In this document: piece by piece, positions 2,007-64,000 of the stretch
Numbering within the stretch: the first letter of the stretch is position 1
Layout: every line of letters starts with the position of its first letter
Virus record (IMG/VR): IMGVR_UViG_3300020172_005639
Span: 56,523-120,522 of that record
Source: a virus
DNA: 64,000 nucleotides
Reading direction: 5' to 3' (one strand)
Position numbers and translations under genes: made by a program
The notes under the pieces: model-generated
The model's database searches: none
Seen by the model: only the letters and a program-made list of their open reading frames with translations
What the model was told of the DNA's origin: nothing

Positions 2007-4751
2007 ATGAGCAAGGAATCGTTCGTAGCCATTTGCGAGGATGCGTTCAAGTCGAAGGGCTTGCAGAAAAACCCTAGGTTTGTCAAGCGCTTCCGCTGGG
2101 AGATCGATGAAATCCTCGGTAAGGAGGATCACCAGTACTTTCTTGACCTTGTTGAGAGCAAGACGCGCTACCCCATGAACCAGAACAACCTTCTGGTCTG
2201 CTGGCTGCTGGGCATAGTTCCCGACTTCGACATAGAGAGAGAGCCTGCGAGCGTCTTCACGGGCGACTTGCCCGATATCGATATTGACTACCTCCCTGAA
2301 ATCAGGGAGTACCTCAAGAACAGGTGGTCGATCGAAAAATTTGGCTCAGAGCACGTCTGCAATATCGGCAGCTATACTACGTTCGGAATCAAGTCGGCGC
2401 TGATCGACATGGCCAGGGTCCACGAGGCTCCCCGTGAGGAGGTCATGGCCATCACCAAGAACCTAGAGGACAAGGACGAGGACGGGAAACTGTTGACCTG
2501 GGACTCTGCAGTCCGCATCCACCCCGAGCTCAAGCAGTATGCTGAAAAGCATCCAGAGGTCGCTGAGGCTGCTAAGAACTTGCTGAACAGGAACCGTGCG
2601 ATGGGTGTCCATGCCGGTGGCCTTATCATATCGAGCATTCCGCTACACGACCTAGTTCCGTTGGTGAAAAGAAAGGAGGCACCGCAGGCTTCCGCTTGGG
2701 TTGAAGGTCTGCACGGGCAAGAGCTCCAGCCCGTCGGGCTGGTGAAGTTCGACCTTTTGGTGATCAGTAACCTACTCCAGATTGCCAGATGCTGCGACCT
2801 CGTCAAGAAGCGCCACGGATTGCAGGGGATTTGCGCAAGGCCAGAGGAGTCCGACTGGACAGACGTGCACGCTTGGCGAGACAACCCCAAGTCCCTCGCA
2901 ATGGCGAACGAGGGCGACCTCAAGTGCATCTTCCAGTTCGACAGCGAAGGGATGCGCGCCCTCGTGAAGTCTGGCGGCGTGAACAGGTTCGAGGACATGG
3001 TGGCATACTCTGCTCTCTTTAGGCCAGGTTGCTTGGCCAGTGGCATGACGAAGCTTTACATTGAGCGCAAGCGGGGCAGGGACTCCTTTGAACTTCACCC
3101 GATCATGCAGCCCATACTCGAGAAGACTTACGGCATCATGGTCTACCAAGAACAGATCATGCAGATCCTCCATGTGGTCGGGGAAATTCCCCTCAAGGAC
3201 TGCGAGGCAGTAAGGAAGGCAATCAGCAAGAAGAAGATCGAGCAGTTCATCAAGTACAAGGAGCAGTTCGTAATCAATGGCCAGCGCAAGCTCTCGTCCA
3301 GCGAGAAAGAACTAGAGGCGCTGTGGAGCCAGATCGAGTCATGGGCCGGCTACGGCTTCAACGCGTCTCATGCCGTCGCATACACCTATATCTCTATGTG
3401 GCTCCTTTATCTGAAGTCCCACTACCCCTCGGAGTTCTACACGGCGATATTGAGCTGCGAAACGCTTAGTGACAAGATCAAGGACGTGAAGATGGAGGCT
3501 CGCATCCACGGCGTCGAGATGCACAGGCTAGACGTGAACAAATCCTCGCCCAACTTCAGCCTTGTCAACGAGGTCATCTACTATGGCTTCCAGAACGTGA
3601 AGGGGATCGGAGAGGGCCCGGCGCAGAGGCTCGCAGCAAACGCGCCATACAAGTCCTTCGAGGACTTCGTTGTCAGGTTCGGAACGGACGCCGGAGTGCT
3701 CAAGCCCATAGTCGCGCTGCGCTGCTTCAGGGACTGCGACCCTGTCACTTTGTGGAAGTTTGCAGATCACTACAAGGACAGACTTAAGAAGATAGAGGAC
3801 AGGCGCAAAAGGTTTGAGTCTTCGCTCTTGGGATATGAGGAGGAGTTGCAGTCGCTGCTTCCTGGATTTCCCAAGAAGTTGTCTGATTTTAATGGCGAAA
3901 ACCCGTTCGATCACAGGATTTTCAAGGAAAAGTTCGACATTGACCAGGAGATCCTGACCGTTAAGACAGTTCCCTGTGATCTGGGGGAGGGAGAGGCTGT
4001 CGTTGAGAACGAGTTCGTGGACGTGCCTGACGGTGATGCCACGATAGAAAGGATCGTTAAGAAGCATTACAAAAAGATAGAGGTCAAAAAGACTTTTAAC
4101 AGGTGGAAGGAGCTCAAGAAGCTGTGGGTCAAGCGCCAGAAATCCATAGACAGGCAGAACGCGCTGGCAAATGACGAGATGCCCAAGCTGGTTCACTTCA
4201 ACCCAGAGGACCATCCAATCGACGGAGAGTTGCTGCGGGAGCTCCGCAACCCCGTAGCGTGCGAGGAGAAGTTCTACGGGTTTGCTTGGATTCATGAGCT
4301 GGAGCGAAGTCCAGACTATACGGGCAACAAAACTTTCTCCGACTGCAAAAACGTTGCCGAAGGCGCAGCCTACCCCGTGGAGATGAAGGTCAAGAAGACG
4401 GTGGAAGCCAAGAGCCGCAAGGGTCATTCCTACCGTCAGGTCATAGCAGAGGACGCCACCGGGGCAGAGGCGAAGATCAATGTTTGGTCTGATGACTGGT
4501 CTCGCTGGCAGTCAGAATTAAAGGTGGCTAACTTACTTAGAGTAAGGCTGCAACCGCCCTCTGGCGGCTTCAATACCTACACTCTGGAGTCCAACCAGCA
4601 GGGCAAGTTCCGTGGAAGGCTCCGGTACAGGGACAAGGACGATGATCCGAGAATCTTCGTCATGAAGCCGGGCGTCAAGGAAGACGAAAAGTTCATGACT
4701 GACGAGGAAGTCCTTGCGCAGTTCGAGAAATGCAACGTGGAAAACCCATGA
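2007..4751 (+). CDS. dnaE: DNA polymerase III alpha subunit-like (C-family) without PHP domain
   Basis: 914 aa replicative polymerase of the bacterial C family. The catalytic Asp cluster PDIDID lies at residues 89-94 and the third Asp in KFDLLVISNL at about 249. Downstream are the typical GIMVYQEQIMQI and NASHAVAYTYISMW motifs (about residues 380 and 450), then an OB-like segment near the C-terminus (about 800-880). In cellular DnaE the PDIDID motif lies near residue 400, behind an N-terminal PHP domain; here only about 88 residues precede it, so the PHP domain is absent. A long Lys/Glu-rich stretch (about 590-720) replaces part of the tau/beta-binding region. The AGGAG site precedes the ATG, and the stop overlaps the next gene as ATGA. 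No clamp loader is visible nearby. Confidence 0.92.
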   Translation: MSKESFVAICEDAFKSKGLQKNPRFVKRFRWEIDEILGKEDHQYFLDLVESKTRYPMNQNNLLVCWLLGIVPDFDIEREPASVFTGDLPDIDIDYLPEIREYLKNRWSIEKFGSEHVCNIGSYTTFGIKSALIDMARVHEAPREEVMAITKNLEDKDEDGKLLTWDSAVRIHPELKQYAEKHPEVAEAAKNLLNRNRAMGVHAGGLIISSIPLHDLVPLVKRKEAPQASAWVEGLHGQELQPVGLVKFDLLVISNLLQIARCCDLVKKRHGLQGICARPEESDWTDVHAWRDNPKSLAMANEGDLKCIFQFDSEGMRALVKSGGVNRFEDMVAYSALFRPGCLASGMTKLYIERKRGRDSFELHPIMQPILEKTYGIMVYQEQIMQILHVVGEIPLKDCEAVRKAISKKKIEQFIKYKEQFVINGQRKLSSSEKELEALWSQIESWAGYGFNASHAVAYTYISMWLLYLKSHYPSEFYTAILSCETLSDKIKDVKMEARIHGVEMHRLDVNKSSPNFSLVNEVIYYGFQNVKGIGEGPAQRLAANAPYKSFEDFVVRFGTDAGVLKPIVALRCFRDCDPVTLWKFADHYKDRLKKIEDRRKRFESSLLGYEEELQSLLPGFPKKLSDFNGENPFDHRIFKEKFDIDQEILTVKTVPCDLGEGEAVVENEFVDVPDGDATIERIVKKHYKKIEVKKTFNRWKELKKLWVKRQKSIDRQNALANDEMPKLVHFNPEDHPIDGELLRELRNPVACEEKFYGFAWIHELERSPDYTGNKTFSDCKNVAEGAAYPVEMKVKKTVEAKSRKGHSYRQVIAEDATGAEAKINVWSDDWSRWQSELKVANLLRVRLQPPSGGFNTYTLESNQQGKFRGRLRYRDKDDDPRIFVMKPGVKEDEKFMTDEEVLAQFEKCNVENP

Positions 4752-11064: not shown

Positions 11065-11340
11065 ATGGCATGCAGAGTTGAGGTGAGGGATCTCCCTTCC
11101 AATCCCACATGGTACGAGCGTGAGATTGCTTTCAAGAAAATGTTCGCAGCCTTTAACAAAAAGGTCGCCGAAGCAGGCATCAGGCAGGCGCTGAAGGAGC
11201 GGGAGTATTACGAGAGCCCCGGACAATCAAGGAGGCGCAAGCGGCGCGAGTCCGAGAACCAGCGACTGAAAGAAAAGCTGCGCGAGAACTTCCCCCAGAA
11301 GAGGAAGCCCAAGAAGAACGACAAGAAGAAGGACAAGTAG
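11065..11340 (+). CDS. rpsU: Ribosomal protein bS21 homologue
   Basis: 91 aa. The core matches bS21: a short N-terminal strand (CRVEVRDL), helix 1 (AFKKMFAAFNKKVAEAGI), then KEREYYESPGQSRRRKRRE and a basic tail. bS21 sits on the 30S subunit near the anti-Shine-Dalgarno end of 16S rRNA and is known in several phages. A phage copy could replace the host protein and shift mRNA choice. The extra Lys-rich tail (KKNDKKKDK) makes it longer than most cellular versions (about 70 aa). It is followed closely by a DNA-binding protein and peptide deformylase. Confidence 0.85.
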   Translation: MACRVEVRDLPSNPTWYEREIAFKKMFAAFNKKVAEAGIRQALKEREYYESPGQSRRRKRRESENQRLKEKLRENFPQKRKPKKNDKKKDK

Positions 11341-15841: not shown

Positions 15842-15849
15842 CATAAATA
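15842..15849 (+). promoter_or_regulatory. Late-type promoter CATAAATA, 5 nt before ATG
   Basis: A 7/8 match to TATAAATA, exactly 5 nt before the ATG at 15855. If initiation falls where it does at T4 late promoters, the mRNA would start at the A of the ATG and be leaderless. No Shine-Dalgarno site is visible for this gene. Confidence 0.55.
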
Positions 15850-15854
15850 AACTC

Positions 15855-16673
15855 ATGGCATGTTATTCAGGTTCCGGCTACACTTCAGGCATAGGGTGCT
15901 CCACTCAGGCTGGTTGTCCCGATGAGTATGGTTGCATACCGGGCAAGTGTCCCGACTTTACAATCCGAAGGCACGACACCAAGCCTGCATTCAAGGTCAG
16001 GGTTGAGGACTGCGATGGCCCCCTTGACCTGACAGACCTTGTCCTTGAGGCCTCAATGTGGGCCAAGGGAAGGCTCAAGACTGCGATCGACACGGACGAC
16101 ACGGTGATTGGACTAGCCGATAATATCGGCTTTAATCAGATTATGGTTGGCGATGTGATTCTGATGGAGCAAACGCGCTCGCCTGAGAAGATGCTTGTTC
16201 TGGGCTTTGACGAGTCGAACAGGGTTTTCGAGGTGCAGAGGGGTTATCACGGCACACCAGTTCAATCATGGAGGAAGGGGTCTAGGCTGAAGATCATAAA
16301 GTTCACCAACGCCAGCGGCTCCACCGAGATGGTATATCACGATGAGCTTCAGTTGGACGGTAACATTACGCAGGATGTGCTTCTGGACAGTTACCTCGTC
16401 TATGACTTCTCTGCAAACGACACATGCTTGCCTGGTTGCTACCACATGGAATTCAAGCTCATAAAGATGCTCCTCTTGGAGGTATCGGCACAATCGGATA
16501 TCCCAAGCGGCCTTTTGCCGAGCAATATCATTCCCAGCTTTACTCCTTCGAGTTATACGCCATCCAACTTTGACTGTGGTATGGCTCCTGGTATAGAGTG
16601 GATTCGTCGTTTCCCGGTTGATGGCGAGGGATTCCTCATCAAAATCTGGGATTCTCCCACCATCGATGACTGA
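15855..16673 (+). CDS. Probable virion structural protein
   Basis: 272 aa. The first 35 residues are Gly/Cys-rich (CYSGSGYTSGIGCSTQAGC), then a beta-rich domain (FKVRVEDCDGPLDLTDL to about 200, with DSYLVYDFSANDTCLPGCYH) that resembles the N-terminal domains of phage baseplate or tail proteins of the BppU type. The end is Pro/Ser-rich. It has a late-type promoter and no ribosome site, so it may be translated from a leaderless mRNA. Role inferred from composition and promoter. Confidence 0.7.
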   Translation: MACYSGSGYTSGIGCSTQAGCPDEYGCIPGKCPDFTIRRHDTKPAFKVRVEDCDGPLDLTDLVLEASMWAKGRLKTAIDTDDTVIGLADNIGFNQIMVGDVILMEQTRSPEKMLVLGFDESNRVFEVQRGYHGTPVQSWRKGSRLKIIKFTNASGSTEMVYHDELQLDGNITQDVLLDSYLVYDFSANDTCLPGCYHMEFKLIKMLLLEVSAQSDIPSGLLPSNIIPSFTPSSYTPSNFDCGMAPGIEWIRRFPVDGEGFLIKIWDSPTIDD

Positions 16674-16705: not shown

Positions 16706-17278
16706 ATGACATCCGGTTTTTACGGCAGGGGCAAGCGCTTCGGCAGGGACACTAAAGATCCCCGGCAGCAGGATGAGCACAGGATAAACTACCACATTCG
16801 CGTTCCGCAGATACGAGTGATTCGCGAGGAAGAGCAGCTCGGGGTCATGTCCACGGATGAGGCCCGTCGCATTGCCCAAGACGAGGGCATGGACCTTGTT
16901 GAGATAGTTCCCACTGCAAAGCCTCCCGTCTGCAGAATCATGGATTACGGCAGGTACAAGTTTGAGCAGGCAATCAAGAAGAAAGAGGCCGCAAAAAAGC
17001 AGAGGGAATCGCAGTCTCAGCTCAAGGAGATTCGATTAAGGCCTGGCATCGCCGAACATGACGCAGAGATAAAAGTCGCTCAAGCCAAGAAATTCCTTGC
17101 CGAGGGCAACAAGGTGCAGTTCTTTCTCCGGTTTCGTGGTCACAGGGAGATGGCACTCAAGGAGCAGGGTTTCAGGGTCGTACAGAAAATCATAGAGATG
17201 CTTTCTGAAGAATCTATTCTAGAGAGGTCCCCAAGCATGGAGGGCCGCTCGATTATTTGCGTGCTCTCACCCAAGTAA
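16706..17278 (+). CDS. infC: Translation initiation factor IF-3
   Basis: 190 aa, close to the cellular length (about 180). The IF3-N domain (NYHIRVPQIRVIREEEQLGV, then DLVEIVPTAKPPVCRIMDYG) is followed by a basic linker helix (KFEQAIKKKEAAKKQRESQ) and IF3-C (KEIRLRPGIAEHDAEIKVAQ, FRGHREMALKEQGFRVVQKI). The ATG at 16706 has an AGAGAG-type site; a TTG at 16679 is in frame. IF3 binds the 30S subunit, checks the start codon and keeps 50S away. IF3 also governs use of leaderless mRNAs and rare start codons, both of which may occur in this phage. Confidence 0.95.
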   Translation: MTSGFYGRGKRFGRDTKDPRQQDEHRINYHIRVPQIRVIREEEQLGVMSTDEARRIAQDEGMDLVEIVPTAKPPVCRIMDYGRYKFEQAIKKKEAAKKQRESQSQLKEIRLRPGIAEHDAEIKVAQAKKFLAEGNKVQFFLRFRGHREMALKEQGFRVVQKIIEMLSEESILERSPSMEGRSIICVLSPK

Positions 17279-23239: not shown

Positions 23240-23678
23240 ACCAGTCCTCATTGTGCCAAACGACTGGCGCGTGGTTGCTGTATTTGGCCGCATAGCTCAT
23301 GCAGAATATTTCCTCGTCATTCTGACGCAAAGCCTTCTTCTGCTCTTCTTTGTCAAACTTGTCGATCTGGGCCTGCTTAGTCCTTTTCAGGATTTTCGAC
23401 CACTCTTTCTTGAGCTCGTTTGTGACTAGGTACTCCCAGACTAGGTGAGCGATCTCGTGCAGAGTCGTGAACATACGACTGTAGTTCCAAGGCGCAGCGA
23501 CGACGATCCTGTCTTTGTAGATGTAGCCTATGTGCTGGTTGTCGCCGTTGAGGGTGTTGCCGGGCGTGTACTTGAACTTGTAGCCGTCAAGAAGGTCACG
23601 GTGTCCTTTGGGGAGACTGTCTAGCAGCTTCCCCACGTTACGCTTCTCTTCGAATTCAAGAAATTGTTTGAAACTCAT
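23202..23678 (-). CDS. Zinc metallopeptidase with HEIAH motif
   Basis: 158 aa. The ATG at 23678 has a GGGGGAG site and begins MSFKQFLEFEEKR, one of the amphipathic leaders recurring here. HExxH is HEIAH (74-78) and a third ligand candidate is Glu 122/123 in DEEIFCMSY, a gluzincin-like plan. Possible roles are maturation of virion proteins or host protein cleavage. A CCTAAATA late-type element lies upstream on the minus strand. Confidence 0.8.
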   Translation of the reverse strand: MSFKQFLEFEEKRNVGKLLDSLPKGHRDLLDGYKFKYTPGNTLNGDNQHIGYIYKDRIVVAAPWNYSRMFTTLHEIAHLVWEYLVTNELKKEWSKILKRTKQAQIDKFDKEEQKKALRQNDEEIFCMSYAAKYSNHAPVVWHNEDWFKFLDKIEKLKR

Positions 23679-23694
23679 TTTCTCCCCCACTTTA

Positions 23695-23702
23695 TTTAGG
23701 AC
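23695..23702 (-). promoter_or_regulatory. Minus-strand late-type element CCTAAATA
   Basis: The minus strand reads CCTAAATAAAG before the GGGGGAG site of the peptidase gene. It pairs with a plus-strand TTAAATA at 23747 in the same divergent space. Confidence 0.4.
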
Positions 23703-23745: not shown

Positions 23746-23753
23746 CTTAAATA
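23746..23753 (+). promoter_or_regulatory. Late-type element CTTAAATA, 4 nt before ATG
   Basis: Six of eight positions match TATAAATA. The element ends 4 nt before the phoH ATG. There is a weak AGG but no full ribosome site, so a near-leaderless mRNA is possible. Confidence 0.4.
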
Positions 23754-23757
23754 AGGT

Positions 23758-24498
23758 ATGTCCAAGCAAAAACAAAAGCCGAAAACCTCGAGACCCAAGC
23801 CAGGCCAGCCCAAGCCGGCAAGCGAGACGCCGCAACACAAGAGGGCCTTCCATCTTGAGTTTATCACTCCTGCGCAAAAGATGGCTTGGGCAAGCTTCGA
23901 TCAGCACGATGTGATTTTCCTTCTGGGAGCTCCTGGCGTGGGCAAGTCCCATTTGGCTTGCGCCTTCGCAATCAGCGAGGTGCTGTCCAAGCGCAAGAAG
24001 AAGATCGTTCTCACGAGACCCATAGTCGAGGCTGGCGGCGAGTCCATCGGATATCTGCCCGGTACATTCGAGGAGAAGGTCAACCCATACATGCTGCCAC
24101 TATACGACTGCATGGACAGGATGCTTGGTCCCGTCGGCCCGCAGCGCGATATAATCAACAAGAGCGTTGAGCTTGCTCCCATCTGCTTCATGCGAGGCCG
24201 CACATTCAACGATGCAGTCTGCATCTTTGACGAGGCGCAGAATGCCACTTTTTCGCAGATTAAGTTATTCTTGACCCGCTTCGGAAAGAACAGCAAGGTC
24301 ATCATCACCGGCGACCCGATGCAGAGCGATCTCAAGCCTGCCGATCGCGCTCTCATGAAGGTCGTCGACAAACTTTCTACCGTAAACGGGATTGGAGTGA
24401 TCACCTTCAAGGCTAACTCTATCGTGCGCCACCCCTTGATTGCTTCAATACTTAACAAACTTGAGGATAAGGAGGAAAATGGCTCTAGTAGTTCCTAA
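23758..24498 (+). CDS. phoH: PhoH-like ATPase
   Basis: 246 aa. Walker A GAPGVGKS (57-64), Walker B CIFDEAQN (D158, E159), the PhoH signature VLTRPIVEAGGESIGYLPG (about 84-103) and TGDPMQSDL. PhoH ATPases are common in large phages; proposed roles are in RNA handling or phosphate stress. A Lys/Pro/Gln-rich N-terminal tail (about 30 aa) precedes the fold. The 3' end overlaps the next gene by 20 nt. Confidence 0.93.
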   Translation: MSKQKQKPKTSRPKPGQPKPASETPQHKRAFHLEFITPAQKMAWASFDQHDVIFLLGAPGVGKSHLACAFAISEVLSKRKKKIVLTRPIVEAGGESIGYLPGTFEEKVNPYMLPLYDCMDRMLGPVGPQRDIINKSVELAPICFMRGRTFNDAVCIFDEAQNATFSQIKLFLTRFGKNSKVIITGDPMQSDLKPADRALMKVVDKLSTVNGIGVITFKANSIVRHPLIASILNKLEDKEENGSSSS

Positions 24499-24889: not shown

Positions 24890-24928
24890 TTTGCAGTGCG
24901 ATTTGGCTACACATCCAGTAGATAGTGC

Positions 24929-26734
24929 ATGCCTTATAACGAGACTATGTCCGGCGGCGTTTTGGTGGGCGGGAACTGCTCGGACACCATGGTCATGGAG
25001 AACGTTGCCTCGGGCGGCGCTTCGGCAGGCGGATCCTCATCCAACAACCTCTCAATGTACAACCTTGCCTCTGGAGGCGTTTCCGCCGGGGGCTCAGCTG
25101 TAATAAGCATTGGTTTCAGTGCGTCAGGCGGCGCAACGCTTTCCGGATCAGCATTGGTAGGGATTGGCGTCGCTGCCTCGGGTGGCGTGGCTTGTGGCGG
25201 CCAAGCTAATTACACGATAGTCTTTGATCAGGCGTATGTATTCAATGTAAATGCCTATCTTACGGCTGATCAGGCTTATACCTTCAACATAGGCCGATCT
25301 CCTCTGAGGTACTATCGCGTTCAGGGGTGCTGCGTCTATCCGACTGCTGCCGGCAGCGGCTTGCCGGAGCAGCCCTTCCCCGGTGGGTGCGATGTGGTTG
25401 GCATAGAGACAGATGACGACCAGTGCACGGGCGCTTTGGGCAAGAACCAGTATACTCAAAACATAATCGCAAGGGATATCCAAGAGGTATGCGAAAAGCT
25501 CTCAAGGAGCAAGCTTCGCTGGCAGATATGCAGCCTCAAGCGATGGAGCAGGCTTGCCGACCCGAGGCTCCGGCCTGAGGACGATGAGTGCAATGTCCTT
25601 GAAGAAGTCCCTTTCGCCGATATCCCCGCCTGTCTTGAGTTCACTCTTGCCATAGACAGCCTGACAAAAATCAAAGCCATCGTTGAGGTGACCCAGGACT
25701 TCCACGATTACGATGGCTCTGGCACCATCACTATGGGCGGTGAAGCCCCTGCTGCGATTACGGCTGGTGGCACCACTCCTACCGTCTGGAACTATTCCTT
25801 CGTGAGTTCTGGTGGCCTTATAGTCATGGGCGGAACGGGAGCTACTTCATCGTTTGAGAGCGACTACCTCATCACAACAATCGTTACCGTGAGCCTGCCT
25901 CTGGAGGAGCCTGTTTTTGCGACAACCGATGCGCTGCCTGAAATACAGTCAAACAACGATGCAATAGTCACCAGTTGCGCAACTTGCAACGCGTTGCCCA
26001 TAAACCTATTCCTGACCCATAACCTTACGGTGCCGGGTCTTTTCTACAACTTCCTTCAACGAAACAACCTAAAGATTCCGCAGGCTATACAGATGAGTTA
26101 CAGCCCCACCCAGGTTGCTTGGATTGCCACGATCCAGTACAAGGGCATCACCGAGTCAAACAGCACGCTGGACAACTGGAGGCTGGTATTTGAGTTCGCA
26201 TGCACAGACTATATTTCCGGCGAATACACCGGCAATCCAGTCATCAAGTTCTCAATGACCGTCAACAAGAAAAACCTCACGACGAACAAGTCGGCAGAAA
26301 CCAAGTTCATGATGACGCTTCCTCCTGTCGGTTTTTGCGCGTCTGTCAACAACTTCAGAAATACCTTCAACTGGCTTTTCAACTTCCCCACCCAGTATGT
26401 CCGCAACAGCGCAAACCTCACCGTGCAGTCGTTGATCTACTACGACAACATAGGAATGTTCTCATCCAAGCAGTGGATGATGTACCCCAACCTATCCTTC
26501 ACCATCTTAAGGGATCCCGTGCAGTCAGGAAGCAGCTTCTACGACCTGTCGCCAATTGTTCCGCAGCCAACTCCTGTACTGGGTAGGAATATTGAGAGTA
26601 TACTTGGTTTGCCGCCATCGCCGTATATCGTCGATCGACCCAAGCGCATCTACGTTCAGCCTCCGATCGTGCCAACGGAATCCGCTGTCCCCGGCATTAG
26701 GCAGACTGGCACACAAGTTCTCACGGAGACTTGA
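24929..26734 (+). CDS. Large structural protein with Gly-rich N-terminal repeats
   Basis: 601 aa. Residues 7-95 hold five imperfect repeats of about 18-20 aa with a SGGxxxGG core (MSGGVLVGG, ASGGASAGG, ASGGVSAGG, ASGGATLSG, ASGGVACGG). The rest is beta-rich with two further Gly-rich hairpins near 265-305 and a C-terminal Asn/Ser/Thr-rich domain. Low Lys content, no enzyme motif and the upstream decoration-like gene suggest a tail, fibre or capsid-surface protein. The ribosome site is weak. Confidence 0.75.
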   Translation: MPYNETMSGGVLVGGNCSDTMVMENVASGGASAGGSSSNNLSMYNLASGGVSAGGSAVISIGFSASGGATLSGSALVGIGVAASGGVACGGQANYTIVFDQAYVFNVNAYLTADQAYTFNIGRSPLRYYRVQGCCVYPTAAGSGLPEQPFPGGCDVVGIETDDDQCTGALGKNQYTQNIIARDIQEVCEKLSRSKLRWQICSLKRWSRLADPRLRPEDDECNVLEEVPFADIPACLEFTLAIDSLTKIKAIVEVTQDFHDYDGSGTITMGGEAPAAITAGGTTPTVWNYSFVSSGGLIVMGGTGATSSFESDYLITTIVTVSLPLEEPVFATTDALPEIQSNNDAIVTSCATCNALPINLFLTHNLTVPGLFYNFLQRNNLKIPQAIQMSYSPTQVAWIATIQYKGITESNSTLDNWRLVFEFACTDYISGEYTGNPVIKFSMTVNKKNLTTNKSAETKFMMTLPPVGFCASVNNFRNTFNWLFNFPTQYVRNSANLTVQSLIYYDNIGMFSSKQWMMYPNLSFTILRDPVQSGSSFYDLSPIVPQPTPVLGRNIESILGLPPSPYIVDRPKRIYVQPPIVPTESAVPGIRQTGTQVLTET

Positions 26735-28208: not shown

Positions 28209-28274
28209 ACAACTTAACACTTGTAAACACTTTATTTACACTTTCTTTACACTGAGACACTGATGAACACTTTT
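28204..28274. repeat. Helically phased ACACT(T) box array
   Basis: Seven ACACT boxes begin at 28204, 28217, 28227, 28238, 28249, 28257 and 28267, spacing mostly 10-11 bp. The array starts at the -10 box and runs over the sigma-factor start codon. Such phasing places all boxes on one face of the helix. Confidence 0.7.
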
Positions 28275-28769
28275 GAAAAACTTATTGAAGATCACATACC
28301 CGTAGCCAAGACCATCGCAAGAAGCCACAAGAGCAAGTACCATCAAATCTCGATTGACGAGCTTGAGGCTGCCGCACTTTATGGCCTCGTCCATGCCGCA
28401 AACAAGTTCGATGAAATTCGTGGCATACCCTTCATTAGGTTTGCGAGCAAGCGCATGTATGGTGCGATTATTGACTACGTAAACGAGCTTCTGGTAGGTC
28501 CGAAGGGTGACAAAAAACTTGCCGAACAACTGCCGGAGGAAATCAAGACAGAGTCTGAGCAGAATTCTCACATCCATTTTGAGGAGTTGATATGTTTTCT
28601 GCCCAAACGCACGCAGTTTATCATGCGAAGGGTTTATGTCTTTGAGGATTCGCTGGCCGACATATCAAGCGTGTTGAACATCGGTGAATCGAGGATAAGC
28701 CAAATAGTTGCAAAAGCTCGAAAGACCATAGAGGATCGTATCGGGAAATTATATGGCTCCGTGGCCTAA
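28263..28769 (+). CDS. Sigma-70-family RNA polymerase sigma factor
   Basis: 168 aa. Region 2 is visible (KLIEDHIPVAKTIARSHKSK, ISIDELEAAALYGLVHAANK, PFIRFASKRMYGAIIDYVNE) and region 4 at the end (LPKRTQFIMRRVYVFEDSLA, SSVLNIGESRISQIVAKARK). Regions 1.1 and most of 3 are missing, as in flagellar or phage sigma factors. It may direct host polymerase to the TAAATA-type late promoters, like T4 gp55, but this is inference. It is expressed from a region packed with repeats. Confidence 0.88.
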   Translation: MNTFEKLIEDHIPVAKTIARSHKSKYHQISIDELEAAALYGLVHAANKFDEIRGIPFIRFASKRMYGAIIDYVNELLVGPKGDKKLAEQLPEEIKTESEQNSHIHFEELICFLPKRTQFIMRRVYVFEDSLADISSVLNIGESRISQIVAKARKTIEDRIGKLYGSVA

Positions 28770-28788
28770 ATAGGGCATGGAGTTTGCC

Positions 28789-29667
28789 ATGAGACAAATA
28801 GCTTGCGGACTTTTTCTACTGATGTCATTCTGTGTAGTCGCCCAAGCACAAGAGGACCCCAAGGAGGTTCAGCAAAAGGATGATCCCGAGCTGAAAGAAC
28901 TCCAGTGGAATAGGTATGAAACGGGCAAGCTTGTGGTTGTCAGCATCGACAAGGACCTCGGCGAGAAGTTGAGTGAAAGCGTTTCCGAAATCAAATCCGA
29001 TGTCCTGACGCGCTGGGGCTTTCCCGACGTGGAACTGGGCAAAGAGTGCAGAATATTTTGCGTTCCCAAGCTGGGCTTGCTCACCAAGCTTTTTAACTTG
29101 AGCGCCCCGAGGATGCAGGTGCGTAAGGAGCTATACGCAATCTGGACTGTACTTGACCAGGATCTCCAGAAATCGGTCGCCCCGCATCTTACTTCCGTGA
29201 TGCTTCTGGAGTACGAGGCTAAAGAGGGAATTGCTCTCCCGATATGGTTCAAGCGGGGTGCCCACCGACTTGCGTCTGGCCCCGAGGACGTAAGGCAGCA
29301 GCTGACAGACTACCATGCTACGGCTAAGCGGGAGCAGTTTGCTTACACGGCGCAGAAGATGTTTATGTATACCGAGGATGAGTACAACAAGCAAAGTGCG
29401 GAGAACAAAAAGGCCTTTGACCTTCAGGCGATTTGCCTCTGCCTCATGCTCAGGCAAGAGCTCGGCGAGGCTAAGCTTCAGGGTTTCTTGAGGCTCCAGA
29501 ACAGAAACAAGCCCGAGTCCGTTCTTCGGGCCATATACGGCTACGACGGCTTCACAGGCTCCATGAGGAGCTTTGAGGAGAAATACTACGACTTTATCAA
29601 AGACTTGACCAATGAGGCTGCTGACGGGAGAGTTCCTGACTCCTACCTCACAATTCGGTCAAGATAG
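28789..29667 (+). CDS. Secreted protein resembling an inactivated peptidase-MA/DUF1570 domain
   Basis: 292 aa. The ATG at 28789 has GGAG 7 nt upstream and begins a signal peptide (MRQIACGLFLLMSFCVVAQA); an ATG at 28777 is possible. The segment VMLLEYEAKEGIALPIWFKR then GAHRLASG follows the plan of peptidase-MA enzymes (HExxH, then lPxWlxEGlA), but HExxH is not present and the EGLA is KRGAH. The end (FLRLQNRNKPESVLRAIYGY) also fits that family. It is probably a non-catalytic periplasmic protein. Confidence 0.65.
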   Translation: MRQIACGLFLLMSFCVVAQAQEDPKEVQQKDDPELKELQWNRYETGKLVVVSIDKDLGEKLSESVSEIKSDVLTRWGFPDVELGKECRIFCVPKLGLLTKLFNLSAPRMQVRKELYAIWTVLDQDLQKSVAPHLTSVMLLEYEAKEGIALPIWFKRGAHRLASGPEDVRQQLTDYHATAKREQFAYTAQKMFMYTEDEYNKQSAENKKAFDLQAICLCLMLRQELGEAKLQGFLRLQNRNKPESVLRAIYGYDGFTGSMRSFEEKYYDFIKDLTNEAADGRVPDSYLTIRSR

Positions 29668-37478: not shown

Positions 37479-38561
37479 ATGAAGTACGACTTGAACTACA
37501 CCCTTTATCTAAGCGGTCTGATCAGCGAGAATCGCTTCTATGACATCTGCGAAAGGTCGGCGCAGGAGATCAAGGCTATGCCTGCCCCCAAAGATGGACG
37601 CTGGCTGGGGAAAGATAATTATGTTTTCAACATTGAGGGTGACGATTGCGTCGACGATATGGGGAATCGGCTCAACAGTTATTGCTACAAAGTCAAATTC
37701 GACGCATATCAATCTCGCGTATCGATCAGCTTCGACAGACTCGGAAGCTACGGCGATCAAAATCTCGGTTTGGGCCAGCAAGTTTTCGACGGAGTTAGAA
37801 AGGCTGTTTCTGAATACATCGCCAAGAACAAACCAGAATTGTTGAAGTGGTCTCCTGTTCGAAGCAAAGAAGGCAAAGAGTCAAGAAGCAAGGCCTACGA
37901 AATATGGTCGGTCAAGGCCCTATGGCCAGAGCTTTATGTAAGCCCGAGCGTTAACCTTTGGGTGCGTCGGGACGTCTACGACAAGCAATATGTCCCCAAC
38001 GGCTATCCCCCAGTGCCACCGGACGCCAAAAAGACATTGAAGTCGCTGAACGACTTCAGAAACTCCACCTCTGGTCTGGAAACAAATTTCAACAAACTTC
38101 TCACCAGCAGAACATATAGACGATCAGGATATTTTGTCGTAAAAAGCGATCCGCAATCAAACAAAGCCATAATTTATCACATCGAAGAAGATGGAAAATG
38201 GAACAAGGAATACAGAGAAAAAACCAGCGTTCGCGAGCTTTTGCCGGATTTCAGTCCGGCATCAACGATGGATGCTCTACGTGTAGCTGACCAGATGATT
38301 AAAGCCGGTCAGAAAGAACAATTGGATTGGTTCCCGCCGGAACTTGTAACAGCCTACCAAAGCGAAGGCAAGCGAATGGCCCTGGGAGCTGCTAAAACCG
38401 CTCTTGGTACGGTTGGAAAAGGCATAGGACTCGCCTTGACCCCGCTGGATGCAGCAGACCAATACATTCGTCCGAAGGTAGAAAAACAAGTAGAAAAGAT
38501 CGCATCGAAAATCCCATCGAAAAGTGCTAGACCAAATACAGAGCGTTCCGACGACTGGTAG
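37479..38561 (+). CDS. Protein with shared N-terminal module (family with 39163 and 7289)
   Basis: 360 aa with GGAGG site. Residues 1-25 match the 7289 protein. Residues about 35-185 match the 39163 protein (YKVKFDAYQSRVSISFDRLG, SYGDQNLG, AVSEYIAKNKPELLKWSPV, LYVSPSVNLWVRRDVYDKQY). The C-terminal 60 aa hold a hydrophobic stretch (ALGAAKTALGTVGKGIGLAL) followed by a basic tail. The coding is A-rich compared with neighbours, suggesting separate origin. Likely a virion or internal protein; inference only. Confidence 0.75.
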   Translation: MKYDLNYTLYLSGLISENRFYDICERSAQEIKAMPAPKDGRWLGKDNYVFNIEGDDCVDDMGNRLNSYCYKVKFDAYQSRVSISFDRLGSYGDQNLGLGQQVFDGVRKAVSEYIAKNKPELLKWSPVRSKEGKESRSKAYEIWSVKALWPELYVSPSVNLWVRRDVYDKQYVPNGYPPVPPDAKKTLKSLNDFRNSTSGLETNFNKLLTSRTYRRSGYFVVKSDPQSNKAIIYHIEEDGKWNKEYREKTSVRELLPDFSPASTMDALRVADQMIKAGQKEQLDWFPPELVTAYQSEGKRMALGAAKTALGTVGKGIGLALTPLDAADQYIRPKVEKQVEKIASKIPSKSARPNTERSDDW

Positions 38562-53422: not shown

Positions 53423-54142
53423 CTACAGCCTTGTCACCCTCGCCCCGGCAGTTGCGGGGTGGTCTAGGTCCAAGGTTGACCTGCCCAGGTCAAAGAACGC
53501 AGGCTCTCTACCCTTCATTCCTATGTTTGCTCCATGCGTGTCTTGGGTGAGGAACCCGGTGTCGTCTTGTATCTTCTTGATCTTCTCTAGAAACTTCTGG
53601 ACCAAACCGATAGTAGGCTCGTCGTCCTTGTATTTCTTGGGCAGAAACGAAAGCACCAACGGCAGCAGCGAAGAGGCATTTGACCTCAACAACCCCGGGT
53701 TCCTGTCTAGGTAGTCGTAAATCGCTTGGCCGGCAACTCTGTGCCTCTTGGTCACGTCCGTGCTTACTTTCTGCTGGACTATGGCATACAGGGGCCGATT
53801 CCTCCCATACTGGTCTAGGTTCACGGAAACCATCTTCACGTCTATTACCTTTGACAGGTTAGGCGAGTCGTAGCCCTTGACCACGGCGGCCGCATCGGCC
53901 TCTTTCTTGTCAGTCGTGAACTTGACGACGTTGTCGCCAGCAAAGTAAGCTCTTCCTACTCCGCCAGCCTTGGGGTCGCGCAAGGGCTCGTTGATGCCAA
54001 GGGAGTGGAGCCACGATTTGAACTCTGGCTTAGAGATTGCCTCTGTCGCCCACTCCTCGGGAAACGCAGCTTCATTGACAAGGCAATGCAACAGCTCATG
54101 TCTTACAAGCTCGCCATATTTTATCCAATTTCTGAAATCCAT
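53423..54142 (-). CDS. Protein-kinase-like protein
   Basis: 239 aa on the minus strand. Leader MDFRNWIKYGELVRHELLHC also holds an HELLH at 15-19. A kinase fold is suggested by: Gly loop GVGRAYFAG (61-69), VVKF with Lys 74, Glu 81, a hinge-like YAIVQQKV (about 119-126), catalytic loop QDTHGANIG (200-208; D201, N206), and DLG at 218-220 in place of DFG. Length fits a minimal kinase. Substrate unknown; a packaged kinase would fit the leader. A minus-strand AGTAAATA lies 6 nt before the ATG. Confidence 0.6.
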   Translation of the reverse strand: MDFRNWIKYGELVRHELLHCLVNEAAFPEEWATEAISKPEFKSWLHSLGINEPLRDPKAGGVGRAYFAGDNVVKFTTDKKEADAAAVVKGYDSPNLSKVIDVKMVSVNLDQYGRNRPLYAIVQQKVSTDVTKRHRVAGQAIYDYLDRNPGLLRSNASSLLPLVLSFLPKKYKDDEPTIGLVQKFLEKIKKIQDDTGFLTQDTHGANIGMKGREPAFFDLGRSTLDLDHPATAGARVTRL

Positions 54143-54148
54143 GATTGT

Positions 54149-54156
54149 TATTTACT
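54149..54156 (-). promoter_or_regulatory. Minus-strand late-type element AGTAAATA, 6 nt before ATG
   Basis: Minus-strand reading AGTAAATA-ACAATC-ATG before the kinase-like gene. It faces the plus-strand CATAAATA of the divergent gene. Confidence 0.45.
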
Positions 54157-54164
54157 CCGGTGCA

Positions 54165-54172
54165 CATAAATA
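54165..54172 (+). promoter_or_regulatory. Late-type promoter CATAAATA, 5 nt before ATG
   Basis: A 7/8 match to TATAAATA, exactly 5 nt before the ATG at 54178. No ribosome site; fits a leaderless mRNA. Confidence 0.5.
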
Positions 54173-54177
54173 CCTTG

Positions 54178-54495
54178 ATGATTCAAGTTTGCCCCACCTG
54201 CGGCCATGAACTTTCTGAGCAACTCAAGGATGGTTTGACGCATTGCTCGCATTGCAATCACATAATCGACAGCAGCGATCTTAACAAACTACTGTCTGCG
54301 GCATGGCAGGTTCGCAAGAGCCACTGGTCTCTGGAGCAGCTGAAGGCAAATGCCAGACTCGATGACGAATTCGCAATTCTGGTTTATACTTTTGTCGCTG
54401 AAAACTCATACTCGCAGGAGGAGTTTAGCAGGCTTCTCAAACGCCTCGGCGTGGCAAACAAGTCCTATGTGAACTATGGCGGGGTGAGATCGTGA
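54178..54495 (+). CDS. Zinc-ribbon protein
   Basis: 105 aa. MIQVCPTCGHELS and THCSHCNH give a four-Cys zinc ribbon (C5, C8, C24, C27). The C-terminal 60 aa are helical (LLSAAWQVRKSHWSLEQLKA). ATG at 54178, with no ribosome site. Stop overlaps the next start (GTGA). May bind nucleic acid. Confidence 0.75.
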   Translation: MIQVCPTCGHELSEQLKDGLTHCSHCNHIIDSSDLNKLLSAAWQVRKSHWSLEQLKANARLDDEFAILVYTFVAENSYSQEEFSRLLKRLGVANKSYVNYGGVRS

Positions 54496-56866: not shown

Positions 56867-56874
56867 CATAAATA
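56867..56874 (+). promoter_or_regulatory. Late-type promoter CATAAATA, 5 nt before a short ORF
   Basis: A 7/8 match to TATAAATA, 5 nt before an ATG at 56880 that opens only 15 codons and runs into the terminator at 56895-56924. Spacing equals that at 15855 and 54178. Confidence 0.45.
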
Positions 56875-56894
56875 AAATCATGCTTGAAAATGAG

Positions 56895-56924
56895 AGAGGC
56901 GCCCAAGTGGCGCCTCTTTTTTTA
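56895..56924 (+). terminator. Rho-independent terminator
   Basis: A 9-bp perfect stem (56895-56903 with 56909-56917), 5-nt loop CAAGT, and a run of seven T. A textbook intrinsic terminator on the plus strand, ending the methyltransferase unit and preceding clpX. Confidence 0.9.
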
Positions 56925-56996: not shown

Positions 56997-58229
56997 TTGG
57001 CTAGGAAAAAAACGCCTGTCTGTGATTTTTGCTCCAGAGGTGCAAGTTTGGCAGGCACTCTCATAGAGGGTCCTGCCCACAAGGGGAAGTCTTCGACTTC
57101 AAGGAGCTACATTTGCGCCGGCTGCGTGGCCCTGTGTCAGATGGTCTTGGAGGACAAGGAATCGCAGCACGTCCTTTTGCCGGGCATGGTGGTATCTCCC
57201 CGTATGATCGTGGAACACTTAGACAGATCGGTCATAGGGCAGGACAGGGCCAAGAGGATGCTTGCTGTGGCCGTGAGCAGCCACTACAAGAGGTTGCACA
57301 GCAAATCCGAAGGTTTCACCGACCCATACAGGGAAGTGAGGATTGAGAAGTCCAACATACTGATGATCGGACCAACTGGGTGCGGCAAGACTTGCCTCGC
57401 CAAAAGCCTTGCCGAAATCATGCAGGTGCCATTCTCAATCGGTGATGCGACGACGATCACAGAGGCCGGCTACGTGGGCGAGGACGTGGAGAACCTCGTT
57501 CTCAAGCTGCTTAGGGCCGCTGACATGAACGTCGCCAAGGCCCAGACGGGCATCATCTTCGTGGATGAGATAGACAAGATAGCCAAGAAGACACAGGGAG
57601 TCAGCCTCACGCGCGACGTTTCCGGCGAGGGCGTTCAGCAGGCTCTGCTGAAGATTCTTGAAGGCACAAATTGCAATGTGCCTCCACAGGGCGGCAGAAA
57701 GCACCCGGAGCAGCAATACATCCAGATCGACACCACCGATATACTCTTTGTCTGCGGAGGAGCGTTTGTGGGCCTCGACGAAATTGTACAGAGGAGGCTC
57801 GGGGCTTCTCGCATGGGATTCAGGAACGATCCCTCTCCCTCAGAGATAAGCATAGAGATGGTTACATCGGAGGACCTTATAGAGTTTGGTTTCATCCCCG
57901 AATTCGTAGGTCGTCTACCTGTGCACGCCACTCTCAAAGACCTCGATGAGACTACCCTCTTTTCCATTCTGACAGAGCCAACCAGTTCAATAGTCAAGCA
58001 GTACAAGAAGATTTGCATGATGGATGGCGTGGCACTGGACTTTACTGAAGGCGCACTGAAGCTCATTGCAAAGAAGGCGAAAGAGACTAAGATGGGGGCT
58101 AGGAGCCTCCGCAGCATCATGGAGGGCTTCATGACCGACATCTTATTCAATTGCCCCGATAAAGCAGGGAGTTCAATAGTTGTCGACGAGGCAATAGTTC
58201 ATGGCGAACCAGCGAGGTTCATCGCATAG
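56997..58229 (+). CDS. clpX: ClpX unfoldase
   Basis: 410 aa, TTG start with GAGGTG site. N-terminal zinc domain (C9, C12, C40, C43), Walker A GPTGCGKT (125-132), Walker B IIFVDEID (D190, E191), pore loop GYVGED (158-163), RKH loop in GGRKHPEQQ, an MGF in place of IGF for ClpP docking (about 265), sensor and C-domain ([13 protein letters not shown]). It unfolds proteins for ClpP. A phage copy could change substrate choice. Stop is followed in the same frame by the phosphoesterase. Confidence 0.95.
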
Positions 58230-63979: not shown

Positions 63980-63987
63980 TCTAAATA
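63980..63987 (+). promoter_or_regulatory. Late-type element TCTAAATA, 4 nt before an ATG
   Basis: Six of eight positions match TATAAATA. It ends 4 nt before an ATG at 63992, with another ATG at 63998, so a gene probably begins here and runs past the window edge. Confidence 0.45.
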
Positions 63988-64000
63988 AAGCATGATTATG

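Follow-up and report, generated by a model that had tools for sequence, protein, structure and literature searches.

Late-type promoter-like boxes set next to start codons suggest leaderless mRNAs in a clade of huge phages

The window analysed here, 64,000 nucleotides in length, corresponds to bases 56523–120522 of a 120.5-kb contig from an uncultivated phage (GC 52–53%), which is probably incomplete. It encodes a DNA polymerase III alpha-type protein, PhoH, IF3, bS21, CsrA-like proteins, a peptidyl-tRNA hydrolase, a deformylase and a 168-aa sigma factor. A nucleotide-level comparison with GenBank for the nearest DNA returned 0 matches; at the protein level, LR756511.1 comes closest among GenBank records; it derives from an uncultured phage, measures 595 kb and lacks annotation. 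A search with PhoH led to further related contigs, which reach 527 kb. In L023 (8864–10624) and L076 (8489–10435), the PhoH gene carries a long, intein-like in-frame insertion.

At the centre of this study are two divergent genes whose ATGs, at 54142 (−) and 54178 (+), lie 35 bp apart with a box on each strand, as the initial annotation had claimed. On the plus strand, a promoter-like CATAAATA box (54165–54172) that is kept in orthologs is separated by 5 nt (the gap) from the ATG of a 105-aa zinc-ribbon protein (MIQVCPTCGHEL...; 54178–54495). The start of this gene is certain, since a CxxC motif begins at residue 5. On the minus strand, a TAAATA box (54149–54154) stands at gap 6 from the ATG of a 239-aa gene (53423–54142), the N-terminus of which (MDFRNWIKYGEL) is similar to a T4 capsid targeting sequence (CTS). 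Both genes are predicted to be leaderless, a reading favoured by the 35 bp available to the two transcripts.

The remaining sites in the initial annotation's list of six are likewise present with the spacings it gave. A CATAAATA box at 15842–15849 (+), kept in orthologs, lies at gap 5 from the ATG of a conserved 272-aa gene (15855–16673, +) that has no family match and is the first gene ahead of IF3. At 23748–23753 (+), a TAAATA box that is kept in PhoH relatives lies at gap 4 from the ATG of the PhoH-like gene (23758–24498, +). Both of these genes are also predicted to be leaderless, and together with 54178 and 54142 (−) they make up the solid cases in the window. Another TAAATA (63982–63987, +) stands at gap 4 from an ATG at 63992 whose gene lies past the contig end; other contigs extending the sequence beyond this point were sought and none was found. 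At the sixth site, a CATAAATA box (56867–56874, +) at gap 5 from an ATG at 56880, the proposed gene start did not hold up: the frame that begins there is only 15 codons long and runs into an intrinsic terminator (about 56895–56923), made up of a GC-rich hairpin and a stretch of T. This ATG was also considered as the start of the ClpX-like gene and rejected, as relatives begin downstream, mostly with a Shine-Dalgarno (SD) sequence. The ClpX-like gene starts at 56997 with its own SD, and relatives start there too. Its start codon is apparently TTG (SD GAGGTG), compared with ATG in the relatives.

Three further boxes were noted in the window. A TAAATA at 23693–23698 (−) lies 14 nt before the ATG at 23678 and represents a leadered form with the SD GGGGGAG. 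A TAGATA at 24919–24924 (+), at gap 4 from the ATG at 24929 of a 601-aa gene, is a further TANATA-type candidate. A TAAATA at 28767–28772 (+), absent from the initial annotation's list, lies at gap 4 from an ATG at 28777 and is ambiguous: the sigma factor gene uses the same TAA as its stop, and translation could instead begin at 28789, where an in-frame ATG is accompanied by GGAG. Outside the window, a TAAATA gap-4 start is found at about 11847 of L005 (contig 31847, minus strand), followed by a 182-aa, cysteine-rich ORF (MYCGGSAQECEAIF...). As the exact octamer CATAAATA is found at only some genes, it was set aside as the definition of the element, and TANATA fits better.

The octamer is nonetheless overrepresented in the window, with five copies against 0.6 expected and 0 of 100 shuffles reaching five. 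The genome-wide spacing test that the initial annotation had called for came out in its favour: in the 120.5-kb contig, 12 of 39 TAAATA hexamers are followed by an ATG at gap 4–6, against about 2.5 expected from gaps 30–60 (binomial P about 4e-6). It is very improbable that this pattern reflects chance or composition, with AT-rich start regions or upstream TAA stops mimicking a box. The TAA before 28777, which is the sigma gene stop, illustrates how such mimicry can arise, and permuted AT hexamers do occur near ATGs too; however, these permuted hexamers have an ATG at gap 4–6 only 0–5 times, compared with 12 for TAAATA. In the AT-rich relatives G001, G003, G004 and G005, TAAATA near ATG is barely above background; because raw counts are too noisy there, gene-start tests were used instead. 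When ten genomes were pooled, the TANATA-to-ATG distances peaked at 4 nt (81 occurrences) and 5 nt (98), against a background of about 25, and no TANATA peak was observed before GTG, TTG, CTG, ATA or ATC.

Conservation of the box at orthologous genes also speaks against a chance origin. Among 15 distinct regions upstream of the 15855 gene, TA[AC]ATA is found at gap 4–5 in 14 and at gap 8 in one; the flanks of these rows differ, yet some rows come from close relatives of each other. Upstream of the zinc-ribbon gene, the box lies at gap 5 in six of seven rows and at gap 7 in the other. For the 54142 protein, homologs were found only in two near-identical contigs from two other metagenomes (L174 and L175), whose copies of 53423–54142 are 100% and 96% identical to it. 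L175 keeps the box on each strand, with a different spacer in between. At PhoH, TAAATA lies at gap 4–5 in six sequences (the window contig, L008, L010/L011, L014, L015 and L016/L017). In L021, L034, L036 and L074, it lies instead about 26–29 nt upstream, and in the last three of these an SD-like AAAGGA or AAGGAG accompanies the distant box. A comparable difference is seen at the 23678 gene, where the likely counterpart in G009, matched by its similar N-terminus and by being likewise divergent from a neighbouring gene, has its box at gap 4 as opposed to gap 14 with GGGGGAG here. Based on these differences in gap among relatives, the promoters appear to shift between a leadered form with an SD and a leaderless form without one.

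The translation signals of the box genes are consistent with this reading. As the initial annotation had noted, no good SD is present: none is found at 15855, 23758 or 54178, and at 54142 a GGAG occurs only upstream of the box. In LR756511, SD 4-mers precede 3 of 62 box genes compared with 266 of 521 others (P 6e-14), a scarcity that is in part geometric because the box sits in the place of the SD; other relatives follow the same trend. Even so, box genes must begin translation without SD pairing. The restriction of the spacing peak to ATG agrees with the expectation that leaderless initiation favours AUG (PMC9031893).

When the sites were aligned on the box, a single additional feature stood out, an A/T tract that spans positions −19 to −15 relative to the T with which TANATA begins. 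The A/T content of this tract is 80–95% for the CTS set and 71–89% for the non-CTS set, compared with 60–64% at 3718 other TANATA, and the same tract (74–82% A/T) is present at 206 TANATA located 12–33 nt before SD-led starts. Because the tract accompanies the box with or without a leader, the evidence favours a promoter acting at the DNA level over a signal in the RNA. A role for TANATA as an RNA or operator element, namely an A/U-rich ribosome standby or repressor site in transcripts that begin further upstream, would account for the fixed position of the box relative to the start codon, and A/U-rich 5′ regions can aid ribosome binding. This explanation is nevertheless quite improbable, given that the A/T tract 15–19 bp upstream persists where the box is far from the ATG and an SD is used, that the hexamer matches late TATA boxes, and that a leadered transcript of either member of the 54142/54178 pair would start inside the opposite gene.

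If the box is a promoter, transcription could also begin a few bases upstream of the ATG, or at variable positions, to give a short non-SD leader of about 4–10 nt. The choice of transcription start site is generally flexible, and gaps of 4, 5, 6 and at times 7–8 are all observed. This alternative is considered unlikely, however, as the gap 4–5 peak is sharp and AUG-specific and as T4 late geometry sets +1 about one turn past the box (PMC2988020). The T4 late promoter requires no more than a TATA box of 8 bp placed about one turn before +1, and its −35 region is not conserved (PMC2988020). Applied to the sites described here, this geometry would place +1 at or next to the AUG.

Relative to T4-type late promoters (TATAAATA; gp55/gp33/gp45), the elements share an A/T box about one helical turn before the inferred start and similar gene classes, in that T4-type promoters drive virion and internal-protein genes and the genes here resemble these in CTS-like N-termini and homology. 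They differ in position and in composition. In T4, the gap at TAAATA-bearing late genes ranges from 9 to 46 nt, mostly 24–28, and an SD is present in 12 of 12 cases, and the box-to-ATG gaps of S-PM2 are mostly 18–27; in contrast, the gap here is 4–6 nt and no SD is present. In addition, the box accepts any base at its third position (TANATA), and the A/T tract near −30 is an extra feature that is absent at T4 TATAAATA sites. The initial annotation's comparison with the T4 octamer was too narrow: where a T4-type promoter has a TATAAATA-like box as its sole conserved element, the sites here have TANATA together with the A/T tract.

Taken together, these observations make it probable that late-type promoters yield leaderless mRNAs, with leaders of 0–3 nt, for some virion-related genes in this clade of huge phages. 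The central proposal of the initial annotation thereby gains strong comparative support from the spacing, the orthologs, the restriction to AUG, the missing SD, the A/T tract and the different arrangement in T4 and S-PM2; it is given up for 56880 and for the exact octamer. In the mechanism proposed, a phage late promoter would have TANATA (often CATAAATA) as its −10-type element, roughly one helical turn ahead of +1 as in T4, and the A/T tract near −30 would form part of the same promoter. At some late genes, the first transcribed nucleotide would be the A of the AUG or lie no more than about 3 nt from it, and the resulting leaderless mRNA would be translated via a 5′-terminal AUG route and not by SD pairing. 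At other genes of the same phages, the same promoter would be used with 12–33 nt spacing and an SD. Four points in this scheme are inferred: the promoter function of the box, the placement of +1 at the AUG, the reading of the box by a phage sigma factor and, from CTS-like N-termini and homology, the late expression of the box genes.

Candidates for the protein that reads the box were sought among the sigma factors. The window's 168-aa phage sigma factor (28263–28769, +) contains Sigma70_r2 and r4, and sigma-70 region 2 proteins are present in 12 of 12 records searched. All long relatives examined carry a short sigma of about 165–185 aa, which is truncated in G008 and G009, and in most relatives this protein, with regions 2 and 4 and FliA-like motifs, is encoded 4–5 kb downstream of PhoH. 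Relatives of the short sigma include L189, L192–L194, L201 and L202, and many relatives have two to four sigma factors. A 300-aa sigma gives a weak gp55-family match in several relatives. Real gp55 homologs are found in LR756511, G020 and G023, and the match in G012 is weak. In the 120.5-kb contig, no gp55 was detected by PHROG 234, PHROG 12791 or a home-made profile, an absence that means little because the contig is probably incomplete. A gp45-type clamp (phrog_223) gave no match in 12 records, in a search whose controls were equally silent. With neither gp55 in the contig nor a clamp match, the activation route may differ from that of T4.

Within the leaderless-promoter explanation, and compatible with it, lies the question of whether the box is read by a sigma other than gp55, either the short sigma or the 300-aa sigma, so that the promoter is T4-like in shape only. 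We give this a little less than an even chance. The presence of the short sigma in all long relatives, near PhoH in most, the restriction of true gp55 to three records and the lack of a −30 A/T tract in T4 point towards it. On the other side, LR756511, which has the clearest signal, does have gp55, and the 300-aa sigma is itself weakly matched by the gp55 family.

Many box genes start with M-x-F-x-x-[WF]-L-x-x-E, which resembles the capsid targeting sequence of T4 internal head proteins (PMC3012670). The N-terminus of T4 IpI is MKTFKEFTSTTT, and LR756511 genes likewise begin MKTFKEF... or MKTFAEW.... When LR756511 ORFs were chosen by the N-terminal motif only, TANATA was found at gap 4–6 in 36 of 83, with 12, 22 and 2 at gaps 4, 5 and 6, compared with 26 of 547 other ORFs (Fisher P about 2e-19). 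A smaller excess is seen at gaps 7–8 (seven at gap 8), and most other positions have 0–1. Conversely, the motif occurs in 32 of 71 box ORFs of LR756511 against 1.3 expected when residues are shuffled, and in 12 of 28 of G008 against 0.3; the LR756511 count is a further argument against chance. The box position did not enter the selection, but the regular expression was drawn up after the first box genes were known and the association is for this reason not fully independent. In the window's phage, most CTS-like genes with a box have a leadered box and not a leaderless one, which counts against the leaderless reading.

In LR756511.1 (L176–L187), CTS-like N-termini (MKTFKEF, MKTFAEW, MEFREWF...) number in the dozens and include 1076-aa and 949-aa proteins; examples lie at record positions 37944 (−), 415872 (−), 520135 (−) and 574780 (+). 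For the T4-type prohead protease, which would be expected to cleave proteins with a capsid targeting sequence, a family match was obtained in LR756511 alone. The LR756511 proteins, many of them behind predicted leaderless boxes, are candidates for packaged or injected proteins. No publication on capsid targeting in huge phages was found among the open-access papers searched.

The initial annotation had further suggested that phage IF3 and bS21 could tune leaderless initiation. In the window, IF3 is encoded at 16706–17278 (+), and a gene with a bS21 match (G000:67656–67781) lies at 11065–11340 (+). The phage IF3 is full-length and aligns with bacterial IF3. Of the 12 records searched, 11 have IF3 and 10 have bS21; both matches are absent from G005, a 43-kb fragment, and the bS21 match is absent from G018 (253 kb). 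In G000, G001, G004, G007, G009 and G012, the distance from the first base of the 15855 ortholog to the IF3 match downstream is about 1.2–3.2 kb. The conservation of IF3 and bS21 would fit a role in leaderless starts. Excess IF3, however, inhibits leaderless translation in E. coli (PMC9031893), which cuts against the simplest form of the tuning proposal. A broader version, in which this clade runs a dedicated late leaderless programme and phage IF3 and bS21 reset the ribosome toward 5′-AUG starts, is speculative and rather doubtful. Under such a programme, AUG-fused late promoters would serve virion and capsid-cargo genes, and IF3 would be encoded just behind a leaderless gene.

Leaderless mRNAs are known from bacteria and from lambda cI (PMC9031893), with a 5′-terminal AUG and no SD, as predicted here; in contrast to those cases, the present sites would define a phage promoter class with fixed box-to-AUG spacing over many genes. 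A closer parallel is the Thermus phage phiYS40, in which middle and late mRNAs are leaderless and initiation factors have been implicated (PMC3594737). That phage is reported to alter host IF2 and IF3 levels and is thought to lower IF3 (PMC3594737), whereas the phages described here encode their own IF3 and bS21. The arrangement, which is likely real, builds on two themes already known: late promoters of the T4 type and phage mRNAs that lack a leader. For their combination, its conservation and the link to CTS-like N-termini, no precedent was found among the open-access papers searched. The resulting signature, an A/T tract, about 14 bp, TANATA, 4–6 nt and an ATG, often followed by a CTS-like N-terminus, could be used to find late genes and candidate packaged head proteins in uncultivated huge phages. 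Finally, the start-codon-fused late genes offer a concrete set of mRNAs on which the effect of phage IF3 and bS21 could be tested.
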